A stretch of 41,776 bases of DNA, taken from the IMG/VR virus record IMGVR_UViG_3300020578_000169, positions 1 through 41,776 of that record; one strand, 5' to 3'. Numbering within the stretch: position 1 is the first letter of the stretch; each line of letters starts with the position of its first letter. Under the pieces are notes generated by a model, which was not told where the DNA came from, did no database searches, and saw nothing but the letters and a program-made list of their open reading frames with translations. Shown here piece by piece: positions 12,343 to 34,329 of the stretch. A program made the translations under genes and the position numbers. The DNA comes from a virus.

Positions 12343-14612
12343 GATAAGATCATCAACCTTTCTGACCATCCTGCTGAATATATAATATCGTTTGGAACAA
12401 CTTTGTGCGCCGCAGGCTTTGTGCCAAGCGCACCTCTGGTTTTTACTCTATATCTACCGCTTGGCTTAAAATATGCCGTGTTTGCGTAATTATTTAAATC
12501 AGCAGCGCCTGGTTTTGACAACGCCAAATATCTATCAACGTCTGCTTGTGAAGATATCCAAACAGAAAACCTGTTTGAATTTCTATCTGTATATTCGTAT
12601 TCTACTGCATCATATTCAATAATTTCGTCATCTATTAAAAAATAACCAGAAAAACTTGTAATTATTGGGCTAGCTCCGTACTCATCCATAATTGAATTGT
12701 TTATTATAAGAGTTGTATTTTCCGCAACTGTGTCCGCTTCTATCGGATACGCTAGTCCACCTGCTGCTAAAAATGACACTGCGGGTTGTGCGAGAGGTTC
12801 TGAATCTCCTAAATATTCGGTAGGAACTATAGGAGTATAAATAATTTTTGTTTGATTTGCAGAAGATATTTCGGTTTGAGTTAATCCTATTATATTGGGC
12901 AGAATCTCTCCTTCTGGTTTTTCATAAAAATTCCATAGGGTAGAGTTTAAAGCAGAGTATATTTTATCTCTAGAATAAAATTGAAGAATATTGTCTTCAT
13001 CAAAGAAAGCATTCATTTGTATATCTCTACATAGTTCTTGAAGAATTTCCCATACTGTTCTTGTTTCATCCGTCCACCAATATTGAATTGTAGGTATAGA
13101 TGTGTCTGTAGATTGAACTTGCCCGCCAGAAATTGATGTAAGCATATTAATATTATAGTTTGTAAAACCTACTGAGTCTAAAAGAATTCTTATAATTGCT
13201 GTTGCGGAGTATCTTTCTAACAATAGATTTGCGGGAACTATTTCCATTAAATACTTTGAGCCGTCAAGCGCACTTAATGATGTATTTCCATATTGATCTA
13301 TTTGCCAGCTATCTGCATAATACGTTCCTTGTGGAACTTCGTGAGTTTTGGTAGCTCCAGTTATTTTAAAGTATGGTTTAATTTCTGCATTCTTGACCAT
13401 GTATATAAAGTCAAACTCTGTAACCCCAGATCCAGTATTCCATCCACTAGATCTATTGTATGGAACAATCATAAGTTGATCTTGATTATAGTTGGACAAA
13501 GAAGCAGTTAATGTATTTGCAGATATTTTGCCAACTGGCAGAATATCTTCTGATGAGGAGGATGACTCTTTGGTTATGTCAGACATAACCATTGCGCTTG
13601 TTATATCCTTAATCCATCTTGCAGAAACTTCTATTACGGCCATGACTGCAGTTGCTGACGGAGCCACCGCTTCTATTCTAATAGATTTGATAAACTTTGG
13701 ATTGCTATATTCATTTGATGTAGAGGTTGTCCATGCCCCACTGGCAGGTGCGTATAGGGTGACGTTCCCAGAAGTATAGGATGCTGGTGTTACGGTTGTA
13801 GTTTGCTCCGTATCGTCTAAATATTTTATTTTTACAATAACAGATGAAGGCATATCATGGGTTTTATCAAATTTAACGATGACCTTATTTGCAATTGCTG
13901 GCTTTGTAGACCTTGCAGTTTCATCTGTTTCGCTTACAATTAATGTGGCGGTACCAGATTGACCAGTTATTTTATTTGACGCAGCAATTTGTTTGGAGAT
14001 GACAAATGTTTTTGTGTCTGGAACTTCAGAAATTATTCCTTTAATATTAAAACTGGTGTTGGAGAGACCAATAATTTTTACAACATCATTGACAATAAAT
14101 CCATGTGGATTGCTTGTTGTATATTTTACTTTTTCATATGTTGGATTTGCTGAAGACGCTTCTGTAATAGAAGCAGCTGTTTGAACATACTTTACATTTA
14201 CTATTCCGTTCTTGCCTTCAGGAGAAACCCAGTATTTATATTTTGCACTAAACCCTGGATAGTATATTCTTGCTGTTCCTAAATTATAATATGCTGATTT
14301 CGGGTCTTTATAATTAAAATTAGTAGAGTTATTTGGAATGATAAAGTATTTAATTCCAGAGCCTATTGGTCTAAATGGTCTAATTATGGCATCTACGGGA
14401 AATAGTTTTTTGTATGGGTTTCCTTTTTTCCACCCGCCAGTAATTGCAGATGTATAATCTGAGTCCAGGTTTTCTGTATAGACCGATATATTATCGATCA
14501 TCGTATTCATGTTATATTCGATAGAGCAACCCAGTCCAGCGGAAACTGAATAAGATCTATTTATTGTATCTTTTACTTCTTGTGTATCTTGTGCATTTGC
14601 TAAGGTAATCAT
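12339..14612 (-). CDS. Baseplate hub/minor tail protein
   Basis: This tail protein has about 757 residues and lies after the tape measure and a Dit-sized protein, the usual place for the hub. A segment reading TVWEILQELCRDIQMNAFFD followed by EDNILQFYSRDKIY matches the gp27/gp44-like hub pattern (W..L..L....... f.De...l.f.sr). A later SGYFLIDDEIIEYDAVEY is a known minor-tail motif. N-terminal domains are beta-rich. I use the ATG at 14612, which overlaps the previous stop (TAATG) and has AGAGG upstream. A start at 14645 would add 11 residues. It probably forms the trimeric ring around the tape measure end and carries the distal fibres. Confidence 0.75.
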   Translation of the reverse strand: MITLANAQDTQEVKDTINRSYSVSAGLGCSIEYNMNTMIDNISVYTENLDSDYTSAITGGWKKGNPYKKLFPVDAIIRPFRPIGSGIKYFIIPNNSTNFNYKDPKSAYYNLGTARIYYPGFSAKYKYWVSPEGKNGIVNVKYVQTAASITEASSANPTYEKVKYTTSNPHGFIVNDVVKIIGLSNTSFNIKGIISEVPDTKTFVISKQIAASNKITGQSGTATLIVSETDETARSTKPAIANKVIVKFDKTHDMPSSVIVKIKYLDDTEQTTTVTPASYTSGNVTLYAPASGAWTTSTSNEYSNPKFIKSIRIEAVAPSATAVMAVIEVSARWIKDITSAMVMSDITKESSSSSEDILPVGKISANTLTASLSNYNQDQLMIVPYNRSSGWNTGSGVTEFDFIYMVKNAEIKPYFKITGATKTHEVPQGTYYADSWQIDQYGNTSLSALDGSKYLMEIVPANLLLERYSATAIIRILLDSVGFTNYNINMLTSISGGQVQSTDTSIPTIQYWWTDETRTVWEILQELCRDIQMNAFFDEDNILQFYSRDKIYSALNSTLWNFYEKPEGEILPNIIGLTQTEISSANQTKIIYTPIVPTEYLGDSEPLAQPAVSFLAAGGLAYPIEADTVAENTTLIINNSIMDEYGASPIITSFSGYFLIDDEIIEYDAVEYEYTDRNSNRFSVWISSQADVDRYLALSKPGAADLNNYANTAYFKPSGRYRVKTRGALGTKPAAHKVVPNDIIYSAGWSERLMILS

Positions 14613-15064
14613 TATACCTCTTCCATAGATGCAGATACATTCCAATGTGCTTCTACGCCACGTTTAATTAAATTAAAAGAACACTCTCTAAACATTACCA
14701 ATATGGGTGTTGCTGTAGATGATTGGTCTGTCCCGTCTATAGAATAATTAATTTTAATTTTAAAAGCACCCTTTCCAATTCCTTCGTAAAAAGATTTAAG
14801 TTCCACTGCTCCCCATCCGCCATCAACGGTAAAAGCGGTGGTGGAGGGAAGTAAAGCCCAAGATGTTGTATATATTCTTTTATCTGTTACATAATATTTT
14901 CTTAAAGTACCATTTGCCATTCTAACAGATTGTTCAATTCTATTATTGCCCACTAAAAACTCTTGTCTATTATGTTCTGACATTTTCTGCCAGGATGGGG
15001 TGGAGGTAAGAGAGGTATCAAAATATAATACAGAACCTTTAGGCAATACTAATGGATATGTCAT
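14612..15064 (-). CDS. Distal tail (Dit-like) protein candidate
   Basis: This is a 150-residue protein immediately downstream of the tape measure gene, overlapping it by 4 nt (ATGA). Its position and size fit a short distal tail or hub-adaptor protein. The sequence is beta-rich (RKYYVTDKRIYTTSWALLPS, AVELKSFYEGIGKGAFKIKINYS), ending in ECSFNLIKRGVEAHWNVSASMEEV, which resembles the strand pattern of tail-tube-like proteins. It may form the ring that ends the tail tube before the hub. The assignment rests on order and general character rather than a specific motif. Confidence 0.6.
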   Translation of the reverse strand: MTYPLVLPKGSVLYFDTSLTSTPSWQKMSEHNRQEFLVGNNRIEQSVRMANGTLRKYYVTDKRIYTTSWALLPSTTAFTVDGGWGAVELKSFYEGIGKGAFKIKINYSIDGTDQSSTATPILVMFRECSFNLIKRGVEAHWNVSASMEEV

Positions 15065-18000
15065 GACGCTATCATGCTTCCTCTTCTTCTAGATTCACCA
15101 ACAGACTTGTTGGCTAAGCTATTCAATTCCTTGATAGCCTGAATTGTTCTTCTTGTGGCCACATCGGCAAGTTGATTGACATCCATACCTTCCGCAGCCT
15201 TAATATCGTTATTGACTACAAATGTGTTTCCACCAGACATTGTAGCATTTTGTAGAGACTTTACATAGTCTGTAGGATATACGGACTCTGTTTTTGCTCT
15301 TAATACCCCTGCAACCTCAGTGCCATATGGCCCTGGGACTTCTCCTCGTAATGAGTGGAATTTCTGAATATATCCGCCTCCCGCAAATTTACCAATAGCC
15401 TTATCTTTAAATATTTTTGTAAGACTTGCCATTTGTTCTGCCAATTCAAGCGGCATTCTAAGGTCTAGGTCTGGCCTAGCGTCTGTCATATCTCTAAGAA
15501 CAAGTTGAATAAGTTTTTTAATTGGATAGACGGAATTAGTGCCTAAGCTTTCAGCAACACGACTAATGCCCCGATAAGCATTCATTAAAAACTCTTCGTC
15601 TTTAAGCAACTCAAGAGGATTCCCTTCGTTATCATAAGAATATCTGCCAAACGATGCTTTACCCATTAACATTTTAAAGTTATGTTTTAACTTTAACATA
15701 TGAGAAGGATCTGAAAATAGGTCTGGGAATGGGCCCGACTTGTCAAAAGCAAATCCAAAGTCTAAGGCTCCTAGTCTTGCTCCCACTTTAGACATTATTA
15801 AATTGCCTTCATTTTGGAACGTATCTACACTTTTAATTAGAGAAACAAACCCAGCTAGTCTTCCAACATCTTCAGCAAGTTGTGCCCTCAATATTTCTGG
15901 TTCTGGCAAAACATAGCCTGCTTTAAATACATTTGATAATGCTTCATCTGTGCCAAATAAACCAAGAGAGGATTCTTTTCCAAATCTGTCTAGAACAGTT
16001 TCATATCCCAATTTGCTAAAGTCTTCGCTTAAAATTACTGGGCTTAGTATGTCTCCGCCTCTAAATCCTAAAGTATTTCTGGGGGATGGTATTCCCAAAT
16101 ATCTTGCAAGTCTTGATCCATAAAGCTCATTGAATATTTCCATATAAGAGGTCTTAATTTGAAGGTCTGGATGAAAACCCTTTTCAAAGAACTTTGCGCC
16201 AGTTGCTGGGTCTTGAAGTATTCTCATTAATGCTGCATGTATGCCTACTGTTGGCCTTAATATTTCGTCAGGATTATCGGCTGACCTTAACGGATTAAAC
16301 GTTGAGGTATCTAAAAGTCCTCGTTTAGATACAACTTCTGCAATTGCTTTAGCTAAAGATTGATTTATATGTCCACTACTTACGGTTTCAAGTATGGATT
16401 CTTTTGTTGTAAGTACACTTCCTCTTTGCGCCTGTCTAGCAATAATATAACTAACAAGATCATCATAACTATAACTTCCAGAAATTCCAATTTTTTTCAA
16501 GATATCCATAATTGGACCTACATATGATCCAGCAACTTGGTCGTCTGTGCGTAGCTGATTAATTGGAATATCTTGATTCATTCCTTTTGCTGATGTGACA
16601 GGAGTCTTCTTTGATGGGAACATCTCACGGTTTCTCGCTACTTTATCATCAAAGTATTTTTCTCCCTTCTTAAATGGATACAATAACATTGCATCTTCAA
16701 AAGCAGCTTGATCAGCTGCTGCTTTTGCTTCACGTGCTGCTATTTGTGAAGGAGTTGTAGTGGCCCAAGGATCTGGTTTGTCCAAGCCACGTTTTCTTGC
16801 TCTGAAATCTAATCCGCCTCGTCTCAATGCCAATTGTCTAGCAACCTCATCTGGATCAACTCCCCTAGAAAGAAGATAATTTATAAAACTTTTTTCTTGA
16901 GGGTGTGCTCTTACAAAGTCTTTATGAATTTTGCCAAGATTAGGGGTTTTGGGGACTGCTGCCGAAGGAAGCGCTGGCTTACTGCTAGATAATTTACTTA
17001 GTGCAGAAGTTATCTTTTGATCTGCTGTTGTTCCAAAATTAGCAAATCCAGATTTTAATTTAGATCCTATTTGCGCTACACCTGGAATTTTACTGTATGG
17101 CAAAAATGCTAATCCTGTAAATACATTGTCTCCAAGACTTGATTTCATAGGAGCGCCCATTGCTCTTGCAGCAAGCATGCTCACTGGATTTCCGTAATTC
17201 ATAAAGTCTTGAGCAGTTTTGCCCATTGATGGTAATCCAAAGAAGTTAGATGTCTGTTCCCAATTCTTTTTATCTGCTAGTCCACCTAATGCTGAATCTA
17301 TTCTGTCTAAGAAGCTACGACTTTTTACCTTACCGCCTTTATCATATTTAGAAAGTCCCATTAATCCACCAAAGGCAAATCCTCTAGGATTCATAAATCC
17401 AAGCTTTCTTGCCAACAATGGATCTGTTTTAATAATTTTTACTAAGTCTTTATAGACTTGATATATTAATTCATTTTCGGCAAACTTTGCCATATATGCG
17501 TCATATACAGAAATATTTTCTGGTCCTGCTATTCCAGAGAATAAATCTGGGGCATTTAATCCTGGGGAATCCCACGTTCCAAAACCACTTGTTTGTCCTT
17601 GAACTCCTACTTCTGGATTATTTACTATCTTGTAAAATTCATCATCTAAGAATCTTCTAGAGGGATCTCTATCTTTATATTTAGTAAAATCGTCTGGCTC
17701 AACATTTGCAACAAAATCTTTCCAATCTTTTTCTATTGCCTCCCGCCTTGTAGTCGACCCGCTACCAGAAATTTTTTTCATTTCCTGCATGCCAGCGTTA
17801 TATTCGCCTACGGTTTCCTTGCTATTTTTATATTTACCAGCTTGTCTTTTCCAGAACCTAGAATGGTCTCTATACATTTTGGCAAGATAAATGGCCTGTC
17901 TTGCATCATTTGGCTTTTGTGGAATAACACCTATAGTTTTGGTTACTCTATCTATTGCATCATGAATTGAAGACTTTGCTAATGTGTCCCCAAACGGATC

Positions 18001-21000
18001 ATCAAATGATTTGTTTGTAAGTCCTAGATACTCCATTGTATTATCAAACGTTCTACTTATTGCGCTTGAAGCATTTTTTACTTTATCCCCAATGGCTGGG
18101 ATAAAGTCTTTAAACTTATTAATTGCAGCTTTTCCAAGTTTACGTAATATTTCTCCGCCCATTGAGAATCCTGGGATATGTCCGCCTTTAGCCATAGTTA
18201 ACATTCCACCAAATCCAACTCCACCGCCAAACAATCCTTTAAATGGCACTGATCCAAGCGTGTCTCGTGGCTCTGCAGGAAGACCAATTCCACCAGATTG
18301 AGACGGTAGTTCAATACTAACTCTTCGTTTCTTGGACATATCAACCGAATCAAATGATTTTCCGTATTCCCCTTCGGCTACTGGAATAAATGTTGTTCCT
18401 GGCAATAGCTCTGAGAGTATAGCGGATACAGTTTCTGCCCTTCTCTTGGACAAGGCCATATTGTAATCTCTGCTGCCACGTCTATCGGCATATCCTTTAA
18501 CAAGAAATGTTTTTCTAAATCCTGGAGCAGAAGCTATCTTTGCTGCAATTAATTGAAGTTCTCTTATTTCTGAATCTTGTAGCGTTGATTTATCTGTCTG
18601 GAAATTAACTGAAAGGTCTCCAAGCATTCTGAAATAATCTAATGCTTGATCGTAACCTTGTGTCATTGATCTCTTCTTTGGCATTCCGCCTTTAGCGTAT
18701 CCATTAAGTAATCTAGAAGCAGCTTCAACAATTCCATCCGCTCCCTTTTGATTAATCAGGTGCATGTTGTCTACACCAGCATTAGCAACAGAATTTGCAT
18801 TAATCATAAATTCGCCCTGAGATGCACGAATCAATATATCATCTGATGTCGGGGTTCCTGGGCCTTTAACTTTTCCGCCTGGACCGTAGTACTGTACCTG
18901 TCCCCCAGAAGCCAATTTTTTAAGAGTAACTCTATCTCCAGTTACATTTGTTATTTCATAACGCTTTCCACCAGTTGTAGGAAATTGAGCTCCCTCAACT
19001 GGAGCAATATCTGAGTTTTCTAAATCCTTTACGCTTGTTTGGTAAACTACTCCCCCCGCTGCACCTGGCGGTTTGAAGCCCTTGATTAATTTATCATCTA
19101 AAGGCTTTTGAGTTGTGCCAGCAAATTTATTTACAGCAGCAACAAAGTTGTTTACGGCATCAGAAAATGTTTTATTTTGAGCAGCTCTTGATCTAAGGTC
19201 TGCATTTAAATTATCTACTAAAGTTTGAGAGAAAGATTTTCCTTTTATAAATGTAGAACCAGTTGCAACATCAGGAGTTGCTGGATTTGCTTTTCTCATT
19301 TCACGTCCAACTTTTCTAAGGTACCCGCCAGCATCTTCCATCTCTTTAAATATATTTTCAATTCTCATAGAATCTGTGCTGCTAAGTGGCTTGTTTATGC
19401 TTCTCAAAGCAATCATCTCAAGCTCATCTCTGTAGGCTTGGGCCTGAGCAAGAGTGGCTGCCTTATCTGCCGCTGCTGCTGTTTTGGCTGCGGCATTTTT
19501 ATTAGCATTATCAAGTTCTTCTTGCAGCTTATCTTTTTCAGCTTGCAATTTTTCAATCTCATCATTATACTTGTCTGCGATAGCTGTACGGAGAATTTCT
19601 CTTTGTCTGTCAGAAGAGAGTTGTTTTATATTTAATTGTTCTTGTGCCGCTTGGGCTAGGTTGCCAGCAGTAAGCGCTTGTTGATATTTAATTTGAGCAT
19701 TCTGCATTTGATTTTCAAATGTAAAAGCTTTTTCTTGAGTATCTATTAACTTGAGTCTTTCGTCTCTTTCTTTTTGAAGCTTGGCAATAAGTTTATCTAT
19801 AGCCTTCATTTTTTCTCTATAATAATCTTCATCTACCTTTTTTAATCTTTTTACAGCGGCAGCAGCATTACCTGCTTCAGTCTTTAGCCTTGCAATTTCT
19901 ACAGAAAGAGGGGAAATTGAATTTCTAAATTTGTCATTAGGATCCGTGTCTTCAGTAACCGAATTCATTATATTTTGAACATCAGCAAAATTCTTAGCCA
20001 ATGCAATTGCTGCGTCGGCACCCATTGCGCCTAAGTTTACTATTTCGGCTAGGCCTCCTGCATACAAAAGAATTTTTGCGGTAATACTTTCAAGAGTTTC
20101 AGCGTTCCCTAAAATTCCAGCATAAACTATGTTTTGAGATTTTAGTTGGTCTATTTGCTCTTCATTTAGCTTTGACTGTGCACCTTTAATTTTACTAATT
20201 TTTTCTAAGGTTTCTGCTGTTGCGTCTGCTTCATCTCGTATATTTTTTTGTTCGTCTTTTGCTCCAATTAAAGAATCTCTATAATTAAGTACAGAATTTA
20301 ACAAAGTGTCAAGACCCCTATTGAACTCTTCAGAATTAAAGGTGTCTCCAGTAGACTTTCCTAAATAATCTATTACAAATTTAATTCCATCAAGAGTTGT
20401 TTGAATTGAATTAAAATCTTTAGAAGTTATTGCAGAGAATGCTTGGCTGGCTTTATCTGAAGCTTTTACTATTGCATATATTTGGTTTGTTGCATCTTGT
20501 GCAGACATTCCCATAGCAATAAATTGTGCTTTTAGCTGGGCAGCGTATGCTACTACACGACTAGGGTCTATGTTATCAAAGGCCTCTACGTATTCCTTTT
20601 GTTCTTTTCTTGCCTTTTCAACTGCTTCTCTTAATTGTTCTATCGTCAAGCTTAATCCAGCAACTCCAGTTTTTGTATATGACTGATATACAGACTTAAC
20701 TTTAGCCTTGTGTAACTCAAGTTCATCATTTATGCTTTTTATTCTATCTTTTATGCTTGTATAGGACTTTATTCCTACAGAAGCAAAGGATTCTTTTGTG
20801 CCTCCAAATGCTAGCCTGTTTGCTTTTCCTAAATCTTCCGCTCTTTTCTTAGCGTCTAAAAGAAGTTTTCCTATTCCAATAAGAGTAGTTATAACTATTC
20901 CTGGTATTGTTATGCTTTTTAAAATCTTTGCAAGTCCGCCTGCAACTCTTGCTGCTTTTATAAGTTGTGGTAAAAACATAGCCATGTATCCAAGTGAGCT

Positions 21001-24000
21001 ACCAACCATCATTCCAACAGGTCCAAAATTTTGTCCAGCCATGCTTCCGCCTATGCTACCTGCTATTCCCAACGCTTGAGACCCCATACCCATAAACATT
21101 GGAAGCTTAGCCACAGGACCGTCTCCTGCTGCTCCTGCTACCCCTGAAACAACGGACGTAGGCGATATTGGCAAACCTTCTCCTGGAGCCTGGAATGGGA
21201 TATTAAATGCTGCTGGTGTAGGAGCTAGGGCTGGATTAACTGCGGATCTGCCTCTTAATGCTCCAGTAATTGTTGTCCAGAGTGCTCTTAAAATTCCACC
21301 AAGATTTTTATATTGCATTCCTGGAATTTTTTTACCGCCAACTAAACCACCAGTATTGTATCCACGAATCCTTCCACCAGAGTTTGCCGCAACCCAATTT
21401 GCCCAGTCTGGATTAGCGGAATGTAATGCAATTGTATTGTCTTTTTTTGAACCTTCAAACTTTTTTACAGTAAGAGTTCTGTTTCCAACTTTTATCTTAA
21501 TATTTCTTGGAGAAGAAGAGGCTCCGCTGTCTGAGCCGCTTGGTCTATTTTTATCAATTGAAGAAAATGTTTTTTGAAAAGCATTCCACCAAGGCAATAT
21601 AGAATCTCTTGATGTAGAATTTTCTATTGCATTTCTTGATATTTGATAATATGGATTTGTATCATCTCCAACTGAGCTCATCTTGCTTACTGCGTTTGCA
21701 TAATTAACAGATAAGTCATCAAGAATATCATTTGCTTCTTTTCTTGTTATAATTCCGCCATTTACTAATGTTTCAACAAATTCATCTGTTGTTCCGATTA
21801 CATTTCTCTTTGAATTTTTACCCTTAGCATATTGCTTTAATGAATTTAAAAGTTCTGAAGGGCTCGCTGTTCCTTTTGCCAATCTTTCATTTAATCCAGA
21901 TCCAACTCCAACACCGTACACTCCAGTAGGCGGCTTTGCATTCCAAGTAGTTCCAGCCGCAGCATCTTTTCCTCCTGTCCAAGAAGAATCAAGTTTTTTA
22001 ATCTGTTTTTTAGTTCCTACAAACTTTAATGGATTCTTAAGTCCAACTCTTCTAATTGGATTAATTGCAGCAAACTTTTGAATTCTAGGAATTAGCCCAC
22101 CAATCTTTCTAAGAACTATTCTTCCAGAATTTATATCCTCAAGTGTTTGGAAATTGTTTCCTTGATTTACAATTTCTGGATCAACTGCAAATTCTTCTGG
22201 GGTAAGCATTACTGGCTGCAAACTACCACCGCCTGCCATAGGTCTTGCAGTTCCAACTAATGAACTAAGAAAATCAATATTATTTGCTGTAGCCTCTTTA
22301 TTTACAATATATGTTCCTGCAGGAAGCATTCCAAATTGTGTATCTGTTGTGTCTGAAGATGGGCCTGGGACGATTGGACCGTCATTAAGAGTGTAAGGAA
22401 TAGTACCACCAGTCTGTCTCCTAATAATTGGTCTTGTTGTTTCTATATTATATCCAGCACCAGATGTTCTTACTCTTAAACGATCTGCAATTCTTGTTAA
22501 GAAACTTCTTTTTTCTGCCTTATGGAAAAGCTCTTTCATATTTGTTTTACCAGTTATTGGATCTACTGATGGCTGTGTGGATGTTGGGACTGTGTACGGA
22601 TCAAATACAGCTCCTCGGGATGCCGCCAAAACAGATACATCTCTTGCCATTTCTTGTTCAATTAAAATGTTTAACTGTATAATTCTATCCCTAGCAGCAG
22701 CAATGCTCATTTTGCCTGCTTGAACTTGTGCTACAATTTCCGCAGATTCATTAGCGGCCTTTTGAGCCAACCTAGTTGTAATAGGAAGAATGTCATCAAA
22801 AGTTCCCATAAAGTCTGTTGTTAGTGCTCCTGTGTTGTTAAGAGTATTCTGTAGTATTCTTAATTCATCTTTTGATTGCATTGCAAGGGCTGCCATCATG
22901 GCATGATTCTTTGCAACTTCATCTGCCACAACTCCAGTTGAAACTGTAATTGGCGCTCTTCCTGTGGGTGTTTTTATAGTTCTTTGTACTGCAGTTAATC
23001 CAGGAATTACTGGCATGTCCCCAGTTGCATATATCATTGGATTTTCGCCAAGCAATGAATTTACGGGTCCAGCTGATTGAGTTACTCCAAATATTGTTCC
23101 TGGTTGATCTATTTTTCTAGGAACCATATGAGCAAATGCTCTAGACTGATATGCTCCAGCTAATGGGTGTTTGGGATCTACTTCTCTTGGAATTCCGCCG
23201 CCTGCTACATAATTTCCAGCAACTGTACTTATTGCTCCAGTTCCTACTGCCGCCCTATTTGCTGCAGCTCCAAGTCCTTCATACGATGCCGTCAAATCAA
23301 GAATTGCTTTTTGTAAAATTCCTGCTGCCTGAGCATCTGAGTAAAATGTTTTTTCTATTAATGTACCAGCATTGTTTGCTGCCATAATTTCTGGTGTTAA
23401 TAGTTTCCAGCCTTCTGCTCCCTTAAACAGTGCTTTGAAATGATATATACCCTTTACTATATATCCAAAAAAGTTTCCAAGAACACCAGTAAGCATAATT
23501 ACTGGACCTACCACTGCAGTAAATGCGCCAGCTAATCCAAATATTTTTTTAATAGGATCTGGTAAATTGTTTATAAAGGTAATTATTTTATCCAAAGAAT
23601 TTACAACCTTTGTTGCAATTCCCAGGAACTGCTCGCCAGTTTTAGCTAAATCTGCTTTTAGCGTTTCTATTGCTCTCTTATATTTACCTGAAGCTGACTC
23701 TGTTACTTGCGACAACTCTCGGCCAGCTATATCAGCCAAATCTTGGCTGCTTGCTTTCATTAAATCTAATATTTGTAAAGTTTGACTTCCCTGTTTTCCT
23801 AAGTTTGAGAACAATGCATTTAAACGAGCAAACTGAAATTTGCCAAATAACTGCTCTAGTGCCTGTTGCTTTTGTAATGGGTCAAGCGTTTCTAATGCTG
23901 ATTGTAGTCCTAAAATAGTTTTTGTTAAGTTGCCAGCATTTTCTGTTACAATTGCCCTTAAGTCAATTCCAAAATCTGCAAACATTGCGGTTGCAACTTT

Positions 24001-25155
24001 TGTTGGATTAATCAAAGAAGCAAGAGATGATTTAATTGCGTTGGCGCCCTCTGCAGCATTTACTCCACCTTCACGCATAGCTGTGAGGTATAAAGCAAGG
24101 TCTTGTACGCTTCCTCCCAAACCTTGAACAACCGTACCAGCCCTAGGTATGGCTTCTACTAAGTCATTAAGAGTTGTTGATGTTTGGTTTTCAACTGCGT
24201 TTAAAAAGTTAATTGATTCTGCTAGTTGTTCTGTATTTTGCTTAAATGTTGACTGAATGGCAAGGGTTGCCTTCATTGCTTCTTGTCTATCTACTTCGCC
24301 AAGTACTGCAAGACGAGTTGTTTCTGAAATTGATCCCAGCAATTCATTTCCAGTTTTACCAGTTGCTGCAATATCGGCGGCAAGGGCAATTGTGTCTTTA
24401 AAATTAACACCCATTGTGGTAGACAATTGTCTTGCTGTGTCCGATACATCTTTTCTCACCCTAGCAAGGGTTTCTGCTGAAGCTCCGCCTAAATCTCCAT
24501 AAACCTTAGTTAAACGAACTAGCTGTTCGTCTGCTGCCTTAAATGCATCTGCTGAAGCCTTGCCAAAAGCTACAAGCGGAATTGTAAGTCCTACCGTTAA
24601 CTGACGACCAGCCCACTGAGTATTTTTACCCCAATTAATAAGTTGTCCTGCTCCATCTTGAACAACCTTGTTCATAATGGCCAACTCTTGACGAGTTAAA
24701 GATGTTTTATTTCTTATTTCATCTAAGCCCCGAGGAACATGCACCGCAAAACGCATCATTCCTTCTGCGTTTTTACCTAGTGGTTGAAGTACCGCATTTT
24801 GCATTTGTACTTGCTGCTTAGCAAGATCTCTAATTAATCCGCCTGCGGTTCTGTTGTGATCTTGCCAGACTTTAAAGTACTGGCCAAGCTTCATTTTTCC
24901 TGAGTCTAGACTTTTACCAAACTTCTCTACATCTGAAGAGATGGTTACGAAATGGGATGTGAACTGACCTGTGCTGCGTAAGGTCTCACCAAACTGAGTA
25001 TTAACTGCACGTATCTGATTTGCAAGAGCTCTGTCTGTAGACTTGAGTCCTGCCTGCATACGAGTGAGCGCTGCCGTTACTTTATTTAAATCTCCAATGA
25101 GATTAGAAAAGTCGGCATTAGCAACTATATTAGTTACAATTTGCTCGTCAGCCAT
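15061..25155 (-). CDS. Tape measure protein, 3364 residues, multidomain
   Basis: This very large tape measure protein sets tail length and probably moves into the host envelope during DNA injection. Residues about 100-520 are the TP901-type phage minor tail core (GVNFKDTIALAADIAATGKTG, LYLTAMREGGVNAAEGANAI). Hydrophobic segments lie near 535-562 and 1350-1440. A strong coiled coil covers about 1745-1910. An OmpA-like peptidoglycan-binding domain spans about 2185-2280 (GYADRRGSRDYNMALSKRRA, D2224). A region near 2970-3230 resembles a HipA/PI3-4-kinase-like fold (E3010, N3118, LDFGFAF around D3132). Gly-rich KGG/GGxV linkers recur between blocks, including GPGTPTSDDI. At the usual 0.15 nm per residue the tail would be up to about 500 nm, less if the inserted domains do not count. 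The stop overlaps the next start by 4 nt. Confidence 0.93.
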   Translation of the reverse strand: MADEQIVTNIVANADFSNLIGDLNKVTAALTRMQAGLKSTDRALANQIRAVNTQFGETLRSTGQFTSHFVTISSDVEKFGKSLDSGKMKLGQYFKVWQDHNRTAGGLIRDLAKQQVQMQNAVLQPLGKNAEGMMRFAVHVPRGLDEIRNKTSLTRQELAIMNKVVQDGAGQLINWGKNTQWAGRQLTVGLTIPLVAFGKASADAFKAADEQLVRLTKVYGDLGGASAETLARVRKDVSDTARQLSTTMGVNFKDTIALAADIAATGKTGNELLGSISETTRLAVLGEVDRQEAMKATLAIQSTFKQNTEQLAESINFLNAVENQTSTTLNDLVEAIPRAGTVVQGLGGSVQDLALYLTAMREGGVNAAEGANAIKSSLASLINPTKVATAMFADFGIDLRAIVTENAGNLTKTILGLQSALETLDPLQKQQALEQLFGKFQFARLNALFSNLGKQGSQTLQILDLMKASSQDLADIAGRELSQVTESASGKYKRAIETLKADLAKTGEQFLGIATKVVNSLDKIITFINNLPDPIKKIFGLAGAFTAVVGPVIMLTGVLGNFFGYIVKGIYHFKALFKGAEGWKLLTPEIMAANNAGTLIEKTFYSDAQAAGILQKAILDLTASYEGLGAAANRAAVGTGAISTVAGNYVAGGGIPREVDPKHPLAGAYQSRAFAHMVPRKIDQPGTIFGVTQSAGPVNSLLGENPMIYATGDMPVIPGLTAVQRTIKTPTGRAPITVSTGVVADEVAKNHAMMAALAMQSKDELRILQNTLNNTGALTTDFMGTFDDILPITTRLAQKAANESAEIVAQVQAGKMSIAAARDRIIQLNILIEQEMARDVSVLAASRGAVFDPYTVPTSTQPSVDPITGKTNMKELFHKAEKRSFLTRIADRLRVRTSGAGYNIETTRPIIRRQTGGTIPYTLNDGPIVPGPSSDTTDTQFGMLPAGTYIVNKEATANNIDFLSSLVGTARPMAGGGSLQPVMLTPEEFAVDPEIVNQGNNFQTLEDINSGRIVLRKIGGLIPRIQKFAAINPIRRVGLKNPLKFVGTKKQIKKLDSSWTGGKDAAAGTTWNAKPPTGVYGVGVGSGLNERLAKGTASPSELLNSLKQYAKGKNSKRNVIGTTDEFVETLVNGGIITRKEANDILDDLSVNYANAVSKMSSVGDDTNPYYQISRNAIENSTSRDSILPWWNAFQKTFSSIDKNRPSGSDSGASSSPRNIKIKVGNRTLTVKKFEGSKKDNTIALHSANPDWANWVAANSGGRIRGYNTGGLVGGKKIPGMQYKNLGGILRALWTTITGALRGRSAVNPALAPTPAAFNIPFQAPGEGLPISPTSVVSGVAGAAGDGPVAKLPMFMGMGSQALGIAGSIGGSMAGQNFGPVGMMVGSSLGYMAMFLPQLIKAARVAGGLAKILKSITIPGIVITTLIGIGKLLLDAKKRAEDLGKANRLAFGGTKESFASVGIKSYTSIKDRIKSINDELELHKAKVKSVYQSYTKTGVAGLSLTIEQLREAVEKARKEQKEYVEAFDNIDPSRVVAYAAQLKAQFIAMGMSAQDATNQIYAIVKASDKASQAFSAITSKDFNSIQTTLDGIKFVIDYLGKSTGDTFNSEEFNRGLDTLLNSVLNYRDSLIGAKDEQKNIRDEADATAETLEKISKIKGAQSKLNEEQIDQLKSQNIVYAGILGNAETLESITAKILLYAGGLAEIVNLGAMGADAAIALAKNFADVQNIMNSVTEDTDPNDKFRNSISPLSVEIARLKTEAGNAAAAVKRLKKVDEDYYREKMKAIDKLIAKLQKERDERLKLIDTQEKAFTFENQMQNAQIKYQQALTAGNLAQAAQEQLNIKQLSSDRQREILRTAIADKYNDEIEKLQAEKDKLQEELDNANKNAAAKTAAAADKAATLAQAQAYRDELEMIALRSINKPLSSTDSMRIENIFKEMEDAGGYLRKVGREMRKANPATPDVATGSTFIKGKSFSQTLVDNLNADLRSRAAQNKTFSDAVNNFVAAVNKFAGTTQKPLDDKLIKGFKPPGAAGGVVYQTSVKDLENSDIAPVEGAQFPTTGGKRYEITNVTGDRVTLKKLASGGQVQYYGPGGKVKGPGTPTSDDILIRASQGEFMINANSVANAGVDNMHLINQKGADGIVEAASRLLNGYAKGGMPKKRSMTQGYDQALDYFRMLGDLSVNFQTDKSTLQDSEIRELQLIAAKIASAPGFRKTFLVKGYADRRGSRDYNMALSKRRAETVSAILSELLPGTTFIPVAEGEYGKSFDSVDMSKKRRVSIELPSQSGGIGLPAEPRDTLGSVPFKGLFGGGVGFGGMLTMAKGGHIPGFSMGGEILRKLGKAAINKFKDFIPAIGDKVKNASSAISRTFDNTMEYLGLTNKSFDDPFGDTLAKSSIHDAIDRVTKTIGVIPQKPNDARQAIYLAKMYRDHSRFWKRQAGKYKNSKETVGEYNAGMQEMKKISGSGSTTRREAIEKDWKDFVANVEPDDFTKYKDRDPSRRFLDDEFYKIVNNPEVGVQGQTSGFGTWDSPGLNAPDLFSGIAGPENISVYDAYMAKFAENELIYQVYKDLVKIIKTDPLLARKLGFMNPRGFAFGGLMGLSKYDKGGKVKSRSFLDRIDSALGGLADKKNWEQTSNFFGLPSMGKTAQDFMNYGNPVSMLAARAMGAPMKSSLGDNVFTGLAFLPYSKIPGVAQIGSKLKSGFANFGTTADQKITSALSKLSSSKPALPSAAVPKTPNLGKIHKDFVRAHPQEKSFINYLLSRGVDPDEVARQLALRRGGLDFRARKRGLDKPDPWATTTPSQIAAREAKAAADQAAFEDAMLLYPFKKGEKYFDDKVARNREMFPSKKTPVTSAKGMNQDIPINQLRTDDQVAGSYVGPIMDILKKIGISGSYSYDDLVSYIIARQAQRGSVLTTKESILETVSSGHINQSLAKAIAEVVSKRGLLDTSTFNPLRSADNPDEILRPTVGIHAALMRILQDPATGAKFFEKGFHPDLQIKTSYMEIFNELYGSRLARYLGIPSPRNTLGFRGGDILSPVILSEDFSKLGYETVLDRFGKESSLGLFGTDEALSNVFKAGYVLPEPEILRAQLAEDVGRLAGFVSLIKSVDTFQNEGNLIMSKVGARLGALDFGFAFDKSGPFPDLFSDPSHMLKLKHNFKMLMGKASFGRYSYDNEGNPLELLKDEEFLMNAYRGISRVAESLGTNSVYPIKKLIQLVLRDMTDARPDLDLRMPLELAEQMASLTKIFKDKAIGKFAGGGYIQKFHSLRGEVPGPYGTEVAGVLRAKTESVYPTDYVKSLQNATMSGGNTFVVNNDIKAAEGMDVNQLADVATRRTIQAIKELNSLANKSVGESRRRGSMIAS

Positions 25156-25166
25156 TTATCTGTGTG

Positions 25167-25825
25167 TTACCCCTGCTCATATCCTAACCCCATTCCGATA
25201 CCAAAGCCTGCTTGAGCGGCGAGAGGACCTTGTAGTGATACCACATCATCTCCTCTTGCTTTTATTCCCAAGGCTTTTCTTTGAACATCTTCAAAGGTAG
25301 AACCTTCGTTTTGTAATTCGTCATCTAAGTTAATGCCTTGAAGACCTGCCAAGAATTTTCTTTTTTCTTCTTCCGTCTTCTGCATTGCCTTAAACGTCTG
25401 GACTAGTTCTGGCATTGAGAGGTTATCCTCTAACTCCTCGTAATTTTTCCAATTACCGAGAAGAAAGACCTCCCCAAGTAAAGCGGCTAAATCTAGTTCT
25501 GCCCAGCCAGAACCGCTGCCGCTAGAAGATTTGGGTCGTCCATCTTAATTCCACCGCAAATTTCTAGAATACGGTTAATTGTTGGTACGTCCAAAGCATC
25601 TTCTAACTTGTCCTTATCTTTTACAAGATCAGGAAGCTGTTTTTCAAGTGCAACTGCACATGCTTCAATGAGAATTGTCAAAGTCTCATCTTCTGTTTTT
25701 GCATCGGCAGTCTTTTGTACTGCCGCCATGAACTTACGAAGTTCCTTAATCGTTAATGGCTTTAGTTTAGCCTTATCTCCATTTTGGAGCTCTATTTCTT
25801 CTACGTCGTATACTTTAGTAGCCAA
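25167..25825 (-). CDS. Tail assembly chaperone G-T fusion by -1 frameshift
   Basis: This is the long form of the tail assembly chaperone pair, made by a -1 ribosomal slip at 25529-25535. The first 99 residues are shared with the short form. After the heptamer, reading continues in the -1 frame as SSSGSGSGWAELDLAALLG, then NWKNYEELEDNLSMPELVQT, ending at 25167 for about 219 residues in all. The -1 frame is open from the slip site to the end. The Ser/Gly linker and the MPELVQTF...KRKFLAGLQGINLDDE region resemble the T domain of known siphovirus fusions. It would bind the tape measure protein (encoded next) and guide tail tube polymerisation. Confidence 0.85.
25482..25535 (-). promoter_or_regulatory. 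Programmed -1 frameshift signal
   Basis: The heptamer C CCA AAT (25535-25529) is in the zero frame of the chaperone gene and fits X XXY YYZ. Five bases downstream a stem begins: AGCGGC (25523-25518) pairs with GCCGCT (25487-25482). It encloses an inner hairpin, GTTCTG (25513-25508) with CAGAAC (25501-25496). This spacing and nesting suit a stimulatory structure. The zero-frame stop lies inside it. Confidence 0.8.
25493..25825 (-). CDS. Tail assembly chaperone, short form (G)
   Basis: This is a 110-residue chaperone located between the tail tube and tape measure genes, the usual place for gpG-like proteins. It has a beta-rich start (KVYDVEEIELQNGDKAKLKPL), then a helical body (TIKELRKFMAAVQKT, ETLTILIEACAVALEKQLPD) and the conserved-type ending EICGGIKMDDPNLLAAAVLAGQN. 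I choose the TTG at 25825 because AAGGAGG stands five bases upstream. An ATG at 25870 would add 15 residues and lie within the promoter. Most ribosomes stop here, and a fraction shift at the C CCA AAT heptamer to make the longer form. Confidence 0.85.
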   Translation of the reverse strand: MATKVYDVEEIELQNGDKAKLKPLTIKELRKFMAAVQKTADAKTEDETLTILIEACAVALEKQLPDLVKDKDKLEDALDVPTINRILEICGGIKMDDPNLLAAAVLAGQN

Positions 25826-25852
25826 TGTATCCTCCTTCGGATAGTTATAAAC

Positions 25853-25881
25853 ATTATAACAAATAGACATTACTAATACAA
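25853..25881 (-). promoter_or_regulatory. Promoter for chaperone and tape measure genes
   Basis: TTGTAT (25881-25876) is followed after 17 bp by a perfect TATAAT (25858-25853). The predicted start near 25846 gives a short leader carrying AAGGAGG before the TTG at 25825. It lies 14 bp downstream of the terminator that ends the tail tube unit. Confidence 0.55.
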
Positions 25882-25894
25882 GCCTATAATGACG

Positions 25895-25918
25895 AAAATC
25901 CCCCTATTTCTAGGGGGA
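25895..25918 (-). terminator. Intrinsic terminator after tail tube gene
   Basis: On the minus strand a perfect 8-bp GC-rich stem (TCCCCCTA with TAGGGGGA) closes a GAAA tetraloop and is followed by TTTT. It would reduce read-through from the highly expressed tail tube gene into the chaperone and tape measure genes. Confidence 0.8.
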
Positions 25919-25946
25919 CTTCCGAATTAATTAAATTTAGATTTAA

Positions 25947-26663
25947 TTAGAATACACGGTCAATGATCTTACCATATTCTTGACCTGCGTACTTGTCTTC
26001 AGGAAGAAGACGGAAAGTAACAGGGAATGTGGTAGGAGTATTACGTGCCAATGAGAATTGTGATTGCTGAACAGATAGGACACGACGTGCATAATAAACA
26101 CGCTCGTTACGTGTGTAACCCGTTACTGTTGTAGAACCAGAATAGTCTACTGCTGGTCCAACTGCACAGAGCTGACGCTCTACGGGTGCCTGCAATAGAG
26201 CACCTGCAGCAAGACCAAGGGTCTTGGTTCGTGCATCTGGATTCGGATCTGACGCCTGAAGTGTATTTGAATTACTAATTGTGTTTGCGTTTGCAACATC
26301 TGGTTGTCCAAATACTACTACAAGATTCTCAAGTGTACCTTCTGCCATTTCTGTCATCAACATAACTTCCATTGACTCTTTGAACAGCTTTGCGGTATCA
26401 AGAAGTTGATCTACGGTTACTGAACCGTATGATGGGTTGTATGTAATTTGAAGACCGTTGTTTGTAAAACCAACGTTTGTCCATTTTGATGCACCAGTAG
26501 GTCCATTTAGGGACTCAATATAAGACGCTGTTGATTCGAAAGCAATTTTATCTTCTCCCTGTGTTGGATCAAGCTTTGACAAGCCTGATGTAGACTTGCT
26601 AATAAAAAGCGGTGATGCACCAACGATGATGTTTTTGGCTGAATTGAAATTTTCTCTTGCCAT
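25947..26663 (-). CDS. Major tail tube protein
   Basis: This 238-residue protein is the likely subunit of the stacked hexameric tube that surrounds the tape measure and conducts DNA. Evidence is its position directly before the chaperone pair and its beta-rich character with a long insert. Segments include SGLSKLDPTQGEDKIAFEST near the N-terminus, GFTNNGLQITYNPSYGSVTV, and the ending TFPVTFRLLPEDKYAGQEYG, typical of tail tube proteins (a final strand with a polar loop). The start has AGGAGG 11 bases upstream. A promoter precedes it and a terminator follows, a self-contained unit for high expression. The codons look more GC-rich than those of the fibre genes, which fits that. Confidence 0.85.
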   Translation of the reverse strand: MARENFNSAKNIIVGASPLFISKSTSGLSKLDPTQGEDKIAFESTASYIESLNGPTGASKWTNVGFTNNGLQITYNPSYGSVTVDQLLDTAKLFKESMEVMLMTEMAEGTLENLVVVFGQPDVANANTISNSNTLQASDPNPDARTKTLGLAAGALLQAPVERQLCAVGPAVDYSGSTTVTGYTRNERVYYARRVLSVQQSQFSLARNTPTTFPVTFRLLPEDKYAGQEYGKIIDRVF

Positions 26664-26724
26664 TTAAGTTTTAACCTCCTAATTTCGAAATTATCGGCTG
26701 GCTAGGCTCTTTCCTCTTGGTATA

Positions 26725-26753
26725 ATTTTATTCCATAAAGGCTCAAAAGGCAA
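26725..26753 (-). promoter_or_regulatory. Promoter for major tail tube gene
   Basis: TTGCCT (26753-26748) and TAAAAT (26730-26725) are 17 bp apart, starting right after the stop codon of the previous gene. The -35 is the same TTGCCT as in the promoter at 32367-32395. A 14-bp palindrome, TAATTTCGAAATTA (26680-26693), lies in the leader just before AGGAGG. Confidence 0.5.
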
Positions 26754-26754
26754 A

Positions 26755-27267
26755 CTATACAAATCTACCTTTTTTATCTGCAGCCCTGGAGTACTTGATC
26801 TCCAGTATGATGTCTGTTGAGAACATTCCCTGTAACTCTTCCGAAGGGGAGGTTGGGGAAATGTCTGCTATAAATATGCTGTAAAATTTAAATTTGTCGG
26901 ACGTGACCGATGAGTGGTTTACGTCTTTTGCTGTTTCGTCCATTCGCCTAAATTCGTCAGTCATAAAGTTTCTAATCTCATTTATATCAGCCACGCTTGG
27001 GGTATATATTGTAAATAGTATCTGTTCACAGCATATGGCCCACAGACTCTCATATGACATTCCAACCTTGTCGTAGACAATATGTTTTTTGCCATTTAAA
27101 AATTGATTCATTTCTGGAGCTTGCTGTACTGGAATTATAGGAACTATTGTCTCTGCTATATTCTCACTATAGTAGTTATCTGCATTAAATAGTCCTGCCG
27201 CCACCAATCTATCCCACAAATATTTACGGACCTCAATCATGGCGTCTAGCTTATAATTTACTGTCAT
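26755..27267 (-). CDS. Tail completion/terminator-like protein
   Basis: This is a 170-residue protein just upstream of the tail tube gene, where siphoviruses encode the tail terminator that caps the tube and joins it to the neck. An N-terminal helix (VNYKLDAMIEVRKYLWDRLVAAGLF) and a strand-rich body including HIVYDKVGMSYESLWAICCEQILFTIYTP, then VADINEIRNFMTDEFRRMD and FKFYSIFIADI, fit the small alpha/beta fold of such proteins. The call depends on order, size and this pattern. It overlaps the preceding gene by 4 nt (ATGA). Confidence 0.65.
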   Translation of the reverse strand: MTVNYKLDAMIEVRKYLWDRLVAAGLFNADNYYSENIAETIVPIIPVQQAPEMNQFLNGKKHIVYDKVGMSYESLWAICCEQILFTIYTPSVADINEIRNFMTDEFRRMDETAKDVNHSSVTSDKFKFYSIFIADISPTSPSEELQGMFSTDIILEIKYSRAADKKGRFV

Positions 27268-28049
27268 GCTGTCACCGTCGCAAATGCTGATTCAACTGCA
27301 TTGTCTGCCATTGTTCTTAATGTATTTGGAGAAAAAGAATATTGAACTTTGCGTACATTTGCTGGAGTTCTTAAGGCTTTGGCCATGGCATTAGAAAACA
27401 ATTGTTGAAATCCAGATCTTTTAATTGATTGATTTACTAGGTCGGTAGTAAAGAAATGTCTTTTCGCTGATTCAAATGATTGCTTTGCTGGGGTTCCGCC
27501 AGGTCTTCTTACCGTTACAGATGCCCCCTTTGGCATGTATACAGTATATCCACTAACATCAAATACTAATCTTTCTGCGCTTCTTGGTTTAATTACAACT
27601 GGCTGGCCCTGTTCCATAATAAATGCTTTATTTGCAAATACATGTCTATGCTTGCCCCTTTTAGTAGGAACCATGCTTGTGGACAATTTAAACTCTGAGC
27701 CTATGCTAAAAGATGTTCCTTGTGAACCGACTATTTTAATCTTAAATAAGCGGGATGTTGGGTTTCCAACCTTCTTCCATTCATAGACATGATGCAAAGT
27801 CTTAGGATTTGCTCTTGCTTTTGCGTCAATATACTCGCCAAAATCTTTATCTATTTGATCAAATAAAGTTTTTGTAAACTTACTGCCAAAGGCTTTGCTT
27901 GTGGTTAATTTAGCAAGGACATGGGTTTTGTAGTAAATCATAGCCGAAACCTGTGCCACTGTGCTGTCTTGTAAATTAGCATACTTGTTTCCAGCTAGAA
28001 CTCTTTCAAGTCCGCTTGCTGCTTGTACCAATAATACGTTAGAGCTCAA
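27264..28049 (-). CDS. Neck/minor tail component
   Basis: This is a 261-residue basic protein between the head-tail stopper candidate and the tail terminator candidate. N-terminal helices (VAQVSAMIYYKTHVLAKL, KFTKTLFDQIDKDFGEYIDAKARAN) precede a basic strand region (MVPTKRGKHRHVFANKAFIMEQGQPVVIKPRSAERLVFDVSG is split by loops). The C-terminal helix includes LFSNAMAKALRTPANVRKVQ. Proteins of this length here are usually HK97 gp10-like connector or neck proteins. The start codon is TTG at 28049 with GGAGG nine bases upstream, and it overlaps the previous gene by 11 nt. The exact role is not determined. Confidence 0.6.
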   Translation of the reverse strand: MSSNVLLVQAASGLERVLAGNKYANLQDSTVAQVSAMIYYKTHVLAKLTTSKAFGSKFTKTLFDQIDKDFGEYIDAKARANPKTLHHVYEWKKVGNPTSRLFKIKIVGSQGTSFSIGSEFKLSTSMVPTKRGKHRHVFANKAFIMEQGQPVVIKPRSAERLVFDVSGYTVYMPKGASVTVRRPGGTPAKQSFESAKRHFFTTDLVNQSIKRSGFQQLFSNAMAKALRTPANVRKVQYSFSPNTLRTMADNAVESAFATVTA

Positions 28050-28467
28050 GTCTTTGCACCTCCGACCTCTTTAACGAAGAGTTGTATCCTATAATATTTC
28101 CAAATGGATCGGTGATTGGAGTGGTTCCCATTACCTCAAATACTGTTGGGGTCTCATTAGGGTAATCAAGTTCTTGCCATATTACTGTGCCGTCAGGCGT
28201 TCTAATATTTGAAACTTTTTCTCTAAGACTTAATTTAATGCTTGTTCTTATTTGAATAATCTGGTCGTTAATATATCGATTATTAAATATCTGTTTATCG
28301 CTAGTTCTTGTTGCAGCAGAATTACTAATTAAGCCTTTAGCATGGCAATCTAAAGTTTTATAATATTGCCAATATTTTCTAATTGCGCCTGTTTCCTCGT
28401 CTTGGGAGTCGACCTGTCGGAAGACATCCATCTTCATCGATAAGACGGAATCGACTATACTAAACAT
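28039..28467 (-). CDS. Head-tail connector/stopper protein
   Basis: This 142-residue protein fits a head closure or stopper that seals the portal channel after packaging. It has a strand-rich central part (DCHAKGLISNSAATRTSDKQ, INDQIIQIRTSIKLSLREKV) and a loop with GTVIWQELDYPNETPTVFEVMG, then a final YNSSLKRSEVQRLEL. The pattern 'd...v.v.t...l...d.i.n..G...yev.G' is typical of phage stopper proteins. It overlaps the preceding connector gene with TAATG and precedes the neck gene. The N-terminal MFSIVDSVLSMKMDVFRQ resembles the start of such proteins. Confidence 0.65.
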   Translation of the reverse strand: MFSIVDSVLSMKMDVFRQVDSQDEETGAIRKYWQYYKTLDCHAKGLISNSAATRTSDKQIFNNRYINDQIIQIRTSIKLSLREKVSNIRTPDGTVIWQELDYPNETPTVFEVMGTTPITDPFGNIIGYNSSLKRSEVQRLEL

Positions 28468-29456
28468 TATATCAGCAGCATACTGGATAACTTGTACTCT
28501 GTCAAAAGCTTATCTGCATAAGCGGATCCAGTCCCTTTATATGCTTCACTTAAATACTCAAAGTCCCAATCAAAAGTAGAGATACTCTTTAAATACTTAT
28601 CTGCCCAAATTCTGTCTTTTGCAAAATAATGTCCCATTAGCTGAATAGTTGCTTGTTGAATTTCATCTGGGACTACTCTCCACCCAAATTTAGCAACAAT
28701 CTTATACCTAACATTCTTTTGAAATACATCTCCCAAATTTACATCAGATATTGATGGGGGGATCATCCCATTTGCCACATAAACAGTGTTATCTACCAGT
28801 GCTGCCCTGTCTATTCTTATAGCAAAACCTGTTTCTGAAATTACTGGGGTTACGCCCCAATTGTTTTTGTTCTCTATCTTATCTACAAGAAGAACATCGT
28901 TTGCATAAATTTGATATATAGTATCAATTTTTGTTGGCAAAGTTAATACATCAGATCCGTCTCCGTACACAATAAGTGTATTGTCAAACAAGAAAAATTC
29001 TTGCCCAGTAAAATCATCTACAAGTCTACGTGCATGCTTTTCGGCCATCGTCAATTCATGATAAGACTTATAATTAGGATCACTTGAGTCTGTGCTTATA
29101 TTTAAATTTTCTATAGCCTCATTTAAATTGCAATAAGGAGTTATTACATTTACTGTAGTAAATTGAGCATGACTGCTTGAATTTATATTATATTTCCAGT
29201 GAAGTTTTAATGTTCTTGGTCTTACTGATATTGAATAGGGAATGTTTATACAATACGATCCAGGATCAGTTTCTAATTTTTGAGCAACAAGGTTTTGTGC
29301 AATTGGCACATCTGGATTTAAGGCTGGGCTAACCAGCGGGTCCAGGGTGATGTCGTATATATCTACTAAAACCGATCCAGCAATATCTACTACTTCTCCT
29401 CCATAAAATGTTTTAATTTTTATGGGGGTTGTGCTATTTACATAAACCTCTGCCAT
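28467..29456 (-). CDS. Head-tail connector (adaptor) protein with N-terminal beta domain
   Basis: This is a 329-residue protein. The N-terminal part (about 1-110) looks like a beta-sandwich domain (TPIKIKTFYGGEVVDIAGSV, RTLKLHWKYNI). The C-terminal part has the helices typical of siphovirus adaptor proteins that bind the portal: NYKSYHELTMAEKHARRLVD, VPDEIQQATIQLMGHYFAKD, and a final region with YKGTGSAYADKLLTEYKL. Similar proteins in actinobacterial siphoviruses are called head-to-tail connectors. The gene lies between the SAP-like protein and the stopper, as expected. No strong Shine-Dalgarno is seen, so re-initiation from the upstream gene is possible. Confidence 0.75.
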   Translation of the reverse strand: MAEVYVNSTTPIKIKTFYGGEVVDIAGSVLVDIYDITLDPLVSPALNPDVPIAQNLVAQKLETDPGSYCINIPYSISVRPRTLKLHWKYNINSSSHAQFTTVNVITPYCNLNEAIENLNISTDSSDPNYKSYHELTMAEKHARRLVDDFTGQEFFLFDNTLIVYGDGSDVLTLPTKIDTIYQIYANDVLLVDKIENKNNWGVTPVISETGFAIRIDRAALVDNTVYVANGMIPPSISDVNLGDVFQKNVRYKIVAKFGWRVVPDEIQQATIQLMGHYFAKDRIWADKYLKSISTFDWDFEYLSEAYKGTGSAYADKLLTEYKLSSMLLI

Positions 29457-29465
29457 TTGTTAGGC

Positions 29466-29864: not shown

Positions 29865-29891
29865 AAATATCTCCTTATTCTAGGTAAATCA

Positions 29892-29920
29892 ATTATAGCA
29901 TTAGTAAATTAAAATGAAAA
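29892..29920 (-). promoter_or_regulatory. Promoter after capsid gene terminator
   Basis: TTTTCA (29920-29915) and a perfect TATAAT (29897-29892) are 17 bp apart. The predicted start near 29885 gives a short leader with AAGGAG before the ATG at 29864. It begins inside the T-tract of the terminator at 29917-29945, so the connector genes probably form their own unit. Confidence 0.5.
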
Positions 29921-29945
29921 CCCCCCAAAAAATAAATTTTGGGGG
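29917..29945 (-). terminator. Intrinsic terminator after major capsid gene
   Basis: On the minus strand, CCCCCAAAA pairs with TTTTGGGGG across a 6-nt loop (TTTATT), then runs into GTTTT. It is a strong, near-symmetric terminator 30 bases after the major capsid gene's stop codon. Confidence 0.85.
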
Positions 29946-29975
29946 TATTTTCTTGCAGACCTAAATCCTGTTTAA

Positions 29976-31022: not shown

Positions 31023-31039
31023 TTATTTTTTACCCTCCT

Positions 31040-32359: not shown

Positions 32360-32366
32360 ATGCTTA

Positions 32367-32395: not shown

Positions 32396-32401
32396 ATAAT
32401 C

Positions 32402-34322: not shown

Positions 34323-34329
34323 TGTGTTT

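Follow-up and report, generated by a model that had tools for sequence, protein, structure and literature searches.

The window, the 41,776-nucleotide IMG/VR virus record IMGVR_UViG_3300020578_000169 analysed at its full length, encodes a very long tape measure protein (TMP). On balance we favour a model in which an exchangeable slot in the TMP of this siphophage-like virus holds a divergent, bilobal kinase-like domain belonging to the HipA / PI3-4-kinase / APH-ABC1 superfamily, and in which this domain would be injected and would phosphorylate a host target. The window domain is likely to be kinase-like cargo because a family of sister domains has a kinase signature and a kinase-like predicted model, the profile of that family matches the window domain, and the domain lies in a replaced cassette. 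The window copy itself is an uncertain and possibly inactive member of the kinase group.

The window protein was identified as a TMP by matches to PHROG phrog_10030 (5e-121), TIGR01760 (3e-26) and PhageMin_Tail (Table 1), and it combines a TMP N-terminal core with a tail-gene context. The motifs that led the first-pass annotation to suspect a kinase-like fold are present at the residues it gave. These are TGAKFFEKGF, NELYGSRLARYLGIPSPRN (residues 3009-3027, containing E3010), SVDTFQNEGNLIM (residues 3109-3121, containing N3118) and LGALDFGFAF (residues 3128-3137, containing D3132). Placement of K2992 as the beta3 Lys was made by eye, and automatic alignments put TGAKFFEKGF elsewhere. E3010, G3117, N3118 and the D3132-F-G triplet are invariant in alignment A4, which consists of the window domain and its sister domains, and N3118 and D3132 align with the Asn and the Asp-Phe-Gly (DFG) motif of all six sister domains. 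The interval originally assigned to the domain, 15255-16250, corresponds to residues 2969-3300 approximately, and the limits in Table 1 are better domain bounds. The proposed likeness to HipA and PI3-4 kinases stood for the order of the motifs, and was strengthened by sister domains with the same layout and a full active site and by the structural match of the sister-family model to CtkA; the fold, activity and delivery of the window domain itself are putative.

A weak match of the window domain (E 0.25) pointed to a 3834-residue TMP (L049) that bears YSDAHGGNLIINPIGKKAGAIDFGR close to its C-terminus. A fixed-spacing DNA pattern (GN..-..G-A-x-DFG) run over viral contigs then identified eight stretches. 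Two of these lay in L049 and L083, which had been found before, and three in new contigs encoding TMPs of 4573 (L144), 3983 (L147) and 4557 (L148) residues. The other three (L145, L150 and L151) were rejected as TMP kinase-like domains, being an unrelated open reading frame (ORF) of 181 residues. The resulting type-1 family has six members, spread over five TMPs of great length (3820-4573 residues), with two in the L148 protein; in each of the five contigs, a single open frame covers the TMP N-terminus and the domain. The six domains have an invariant Lys (GY[LF]K), Glu (RE[IV]FGS), Asp-x-His-Gly-Gly-Asn and Asp-Phe-Gly, corresponding to alignment columns K51, E64, D162, H164, N167 and D181, and thus possess the complete Lys, Glu, D-x-H-x-x-N and DFG set of a kinase. 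Because the L049 and L083 domains are 98% identical, they count nearly as one observation. The Pfam profile of the UbiB/ABC1 atypical kinases (PF03109) touched the catalytic loop in four of the six domains, but below threshold (E 0.05-0.11; 12 bits, where the cut-off is 22.9), so that by Pfam the type-1 domains are not members of this family. Searches with the type-1 domain among INPHARED phages and with alignment A3 among genome contigs gave no match.

An AlphaFold model of the type-1 domain was generated from the six-row alignment A5. In this model, strands at residues 34-41 and 47-53 are followed by a helix (58-73) and two further strands (81-85 and 94-99), with K51 on a strand and E64 on the helix. 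This is the order of elements in a kinase N-lobe, and a helical part follows. All 50 matches listed by Foldseek against the PDB were kinases. The best full-length match was Helicobacter pylori CtkA (3akk; TMq 0.41, prob 0.99, E 5.6e-3), which we take to be HipA-like, although CtkA is a stand-alone bacterial protein and the two are only 12% identical. Phage and viral kinases predominated among the BFVD matches, two of which reached an E value of 1e-3. Among the best were a portal-annotated phage protein of 1201 residues and A0A6J5MJB0 of an uncultured Caudovirales phage, which is annotated as a PI3/4-kinase catalytic domain (TMq 0.41, prob 1.00). The latter differs in having only 614 residues and no TMP annotation, and its likeness is a fold match only. 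The model thus supports a kinase fold in the type-1 family well, though not conclusively.

The window domain is homologous to this complete-motif family. When the type-1 profile was compared with window residues 2940-3250 by hhalign, a match of 138 columns was obtained, spanning from before the alphaC Glu to past the DFG motif (score 40.2, probability 67.5, E 5e-5). Neither the 400 shuffled sequences (highest score 25.8) nor the 386 real tiles taken from TMPs that lack a type-1 domain (highest score 30.4) reached this value. The profile score is subject to a mild selection effect, since the profile was built after the weak match to L049 had singled out the family. A whole-domain local alignment of the window domain with L049 scored above all 1000 shuffles (z 6.1). 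Moreover, the spacing from GN to DFG is equal in the window domain and the type-1 sisters, and the slot is also the same.

Comparison with related phages revealed that the domain lies in an exchanged cassette. At the DNA level, the window is homologous to L129 at 12787-15387 (73%), 18699-18849 (80%) and 19123-21015 (72%), with no homology between these segments, and the comparison with L003 gave the same pattern except that the upper flank began at 19154. The flanks of this slot, which we call slot B, are 71-81% identical to those of L129 and L003. Absence of homology between conserved flanks indicates that block 15388-18698, which contains the OmpA domain, an apolar segment and the kinase-like domain, was replaced as a unit relative to L129 and L003. 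Only about 107 codons of the TMP gene follow slot B. A second variable segment, slot A, differs in the window from both L129 and L002 and could be given no domain assignment. The window and L002 are 92% identical over 13 kb of DNA (22078-35151) up to a break at 22078, beyond which L002 has a kinase-like domain of a second family (type-2) in slot A. Across 69 distinct, complete sister TMPs the median is 2160 residues, with only six longer than 2500 residues; the window TMP is about 1200 residues above this median. The added length of the long TMPs is cargo, and most sister TMPs are without such cargo. Thus, what had been noted earlier as an isolated domain is one of the cassettes found in a class of long TMPs that carry cargo.

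Several results weigh against our model. The type-1 model was of moderate quality only, with a predicted local distance difference test (pLDDT) score of 57.6 and a predicted TM-score (pTM) of 0.61. Its catalytic loop (residues 160-195) had a pLDDT below 50, and among the PDB matches listed none reached an E value of 1e-3. The N-lobe match of the window domain was not significant by itself, as 46 of 1000 shuffles reached it. The window domain had no match in Pfam, NCBIfam or the PDB, and no curated family profile there recognises it. No relative was confirmed in viral contigs, where alignment query A1 gave 71 pattern stretches and no confirmed case, or in genome contigs; the best matches in phage records (E 3) and plasmids (E 4) were not significant, such that no close homologue was found in any of these four collections. 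An AlphaFold (AF2) model of the window domain from a three-row alignment was uninformative (pLDDT 34, pTM 0.27). Delivery of TMP cargo to the host cytoplasm is a step that we infer. Finally, the window domain has no catalytic Asp at the canonical five-residue distance ahead of the metal-binding Asn, and it lacks the His found in the catalytic loop of the sister family. Other searches were equally unrevealing: the C-terminal 679 residues, including the domain, matched only one weak unnamed family in PHROGs, a query built on the TMP C-terminus gave no match, PDB profile searches with alignments A3 and A4 returned designed repeats and noise only, and regular-expression motif scans across the TMPs gave chance matches for the most part.

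The irregular catalytic loop bears directly on whether the window copy is a pseudokinase, a kinase-like fold that has no catalytic activity and plays a structural, binding or envelope-docking part in the TMP. The first-pass annotation had already remarked on the non-canonical spacing. D3111 lies seven residues before N3118, compared with five in the type-1 domains, and an ungapped alignment places F3113 at the position of the catalytic Asp and N3115 at that of the His. The window copy may be inactive because of this spacing and the missing His, and no close homologues were found that would reveal constraint. However, none of the Lys, Glu, Asn and DFG Asp is missing, and the active sites are complete in the sister domains that occupy this kind of slot. 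We therefore consider a pseudokinase unlikely, while giving it serious weight.

The blank library searches and AlphaFold model of the window domain would also be expected if the motifs were a chance likeness in an unrelated helical cargo or in a TMP linker, and four short motifs within 260 residues are open to over-reading. This explanation appears improbable given that neither the shuffles nor the real TMP tiles reached the profile score, that the whole-domain alignment with L049 exceeded every shuffle, and that the slot and the GN-to-DFG spacing are shared.

Cargo of several kinds was found in other long TMPs. The type-2 family is present in four TMPs (those of L060, L002, and the L148 and L144 contigs, the last also designated L159), and occupies a mid-TMP position in L002, L060 and L159. 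Its domains have an invariant Lys, Glu, K-D-L-x-x-x-N and D-x-G, with a D-to-N spacing of five. The 4557-residue TMP of the L148 contig (L157:57-13727:-) contains three kinase-like domains, at residues 2381-2689, 2817-3128 (type-2) and 3213-3520. In L158:162-12110:+, an OmpA domain (residues 1907-2000) precedes a kinase-like domain (2536-2842), as it does in the window TMP. The type-2 profile gave no detectable match to the window TMP, and a resemblance between TGAKFFEKGF of the window and NGTKEFVKP of the type-2 domains, seen by eye only, was discarded. Pfam supported additional domains in long TMPs, namely CHAP plus LysM (L068 and L107), LysM (L049) and OmpA (the window and L158). Segments resembling ADP-ribosyltransferases (ART), M15 peptidases and HExxH peptidases were recognised by reading the sequence, and Pfam did not confirm them. 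Two such ART-like segments (SYRGLSD... and GMFHGSADL...), identified by eye and with no Pfam or NCBIfam match, flank the kinase-like domain of L049 (L049:18230-19372:+ and L049:20630-21484:+). The closest complete sister TMP, that of L129, carries in the slot of the window kinase-like domain a cargo that matches no Pfam family (L129:17495-19207:+).

In the siphophages that have been studied, TMPs exit the tail together with the DNA, presumably starting with the C-terminal parts close to the tip. According to our model, TMPs that are homologous elsewhere would exchange their cargo domains, which include ART-like domains, peptidases and at least two further kinase-like families, and the kinase-like slot of the window lies between a peptidoglycan-binding OmpA-type domain and the conserved TMP C-terminus. 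Located near the tail tip, this C-terminus would exit with the DNA and carry the domain into the host, where it would phosphorylate a target early in infection. The presence of peptidoglycan-binding or hydrolase domains beside catalytic domains fits a protein that acts once it has crossed the envelope. It has been proposed that GxxxG segments in the C-termini of TMPs aid membrane passage (PMC10240207). The apolar segment that precedes the window cargo (residues 2610-2735) was below the hydropathy threshold applied, so a role for it in membrane passage is only an idea. The least probable of the alternatives, that an active kinase works in the producing cell in assembly, self-phosphorylation or regulation of TMP processing, is compatible with the presence of the domain in the cell while virions assemble, but its exchange with ART-like, peptidase and peptidoglycan-binding cargo fits delivery better, and most sister TMPs lack such cargo. 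A broader and more tentative possibility is that these TMPs are multi-effector delivery proteins with two slots and at least three kinase-like families in addition to ART-like domains and proteases, and that the window member is a distinct and active one that modifies the host from the start of infection.

Our search of the open-access literature for an earlier description of a kinase, HipA, ART or toxin in a TMP found no TMP kinase. Most of the injected phage effectors known so far are head or ejection proteins. Polyvalent proteins include kinase-superfamily domains and are thought to be injected with phage DNA, these kinases occurring mainly in (pro)phages of Verrucomicrobia-Chlamydia and Bacteroidetes (Iyer et al. 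2017, PMC5512222). The arrangement described here resembles theirs in having a kinase-superfamily domain among disparate domains of one large protein and in suggesting cassette-like exchange. It differs in that the carrier is a TMP (the word 'tape' is absent from PMC5512222) and in its resemblance to HipA/PI3-4K types. Furthermore, polyvalent-protein kinases lose the C-terminal kinase subdomain, whereas the type-1 model has helices after the DFG motif that would form a helical C-lobe. MuF polymorphic toxins of temperate phages likewise combine a structural protein with exchangeable C-terminal effectors that are proposed to enter the host with the DNA (Jamet et al. 2017, PMC5576092), although MuF is a head protein and that paper makes no mention of kinases. 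As in polymorphic toxins, block 15388-18698 places an exchangeable C-terminal domain on a constant carrier. A small downstream ORF encoding putative immunity is typical of MuF toxins, whereas the gene that follows the window TMP gene is a conserved tail-region ORF of 150 residues (14612-15064) overlapping it by four bases. Because the DNA around this gene has a homologous counterpart in L129, whose cargo is different, it does not qualify as an adjacent immunity gene.

Since sister phages have clearer kinase-like and toxin-like domains in the slot, the tail ruler may deliver enzymes into the bacterium. If the cargo does reach the cytoplasm, this ruler would be a delivery vehicle with exchangeable effector domains and a system for early host takeover, and the cargo would account for the few TMPs that far exceed the usual length. 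The cassette borders allow more domains to be found by inspecting the sequence between conserved blocks of long TMPs.

Table 1. Features of the tape measure protein gene and its cargo in the window
Feature	Coordinates	Strand	Residues	Remarks
TMP gene	15061..25155	-		3364 aa, one intact open frame
PhageMin_Tail domain	23842..24444	-	238-438	Pfam E 1.8e-27
Slot A	21388..22074	-	~1028-1256	variable mid-TMP segment
Slot B cargo cassette	15388..18636	-	~2174-3256	no DNA homology to L129/L003
OmpA C-terminal (peptidoglycan-binding) domain	18409..18603	-	2185-2249	Pfam OmpA 1.6e-10
Apolar segment before cargo	16951..17328	-	~2610-2735	resembles pre-cargo segments of L049, L148 and L129 (by eye, tentative)
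Probable kinase-like domain	15421..16338	-	~2940-3245	
Putative strand beta3, TGAKFFEKGF	16174..16203	-	2985-2994	Lys K2992; by-eye match to GY[LF]K of sister family
Putative alphaC, then LGIPSP	16075..16149	-	3003-3027	Glu E3010, invariant in alignment
Putative catalytic loop to DFG	15745..15843	-	3105-3137	D3111(?), N3118, D3132
Conserved TMP C-terminus	15064..15387	-	3257-3364	66% identity with L129

Relatives of the N-terminal part of the protein (residues 1-650) are common in viral contigs, with at least 588 of at least 599 candidate stretches confirmed. Among named phages, the closest TMP matches were to Streptomyces and Gordonia phages at less than 60% identity, which suggests from sequence similarity that the host of the window phage is actinobacterial. 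The TMP of L003 is split into two frames (1022 and 1918 residues) relative to that of its near relative L129, which may be a genuine frameshift or may stem from misassembly. Upstream of the TMP gene, two small overlapping genes (25167-25870, - strand) resemble tail chaperones of the G/GT type; the open frame of the second continues upstream into the first, and there is a slippery-like heptamer, CCCAAAT, at about 25535. Two proteins rich in collagen-like GPTGATG repeats, encoded at 38174-40951 (- strand), are probably tail fibres.
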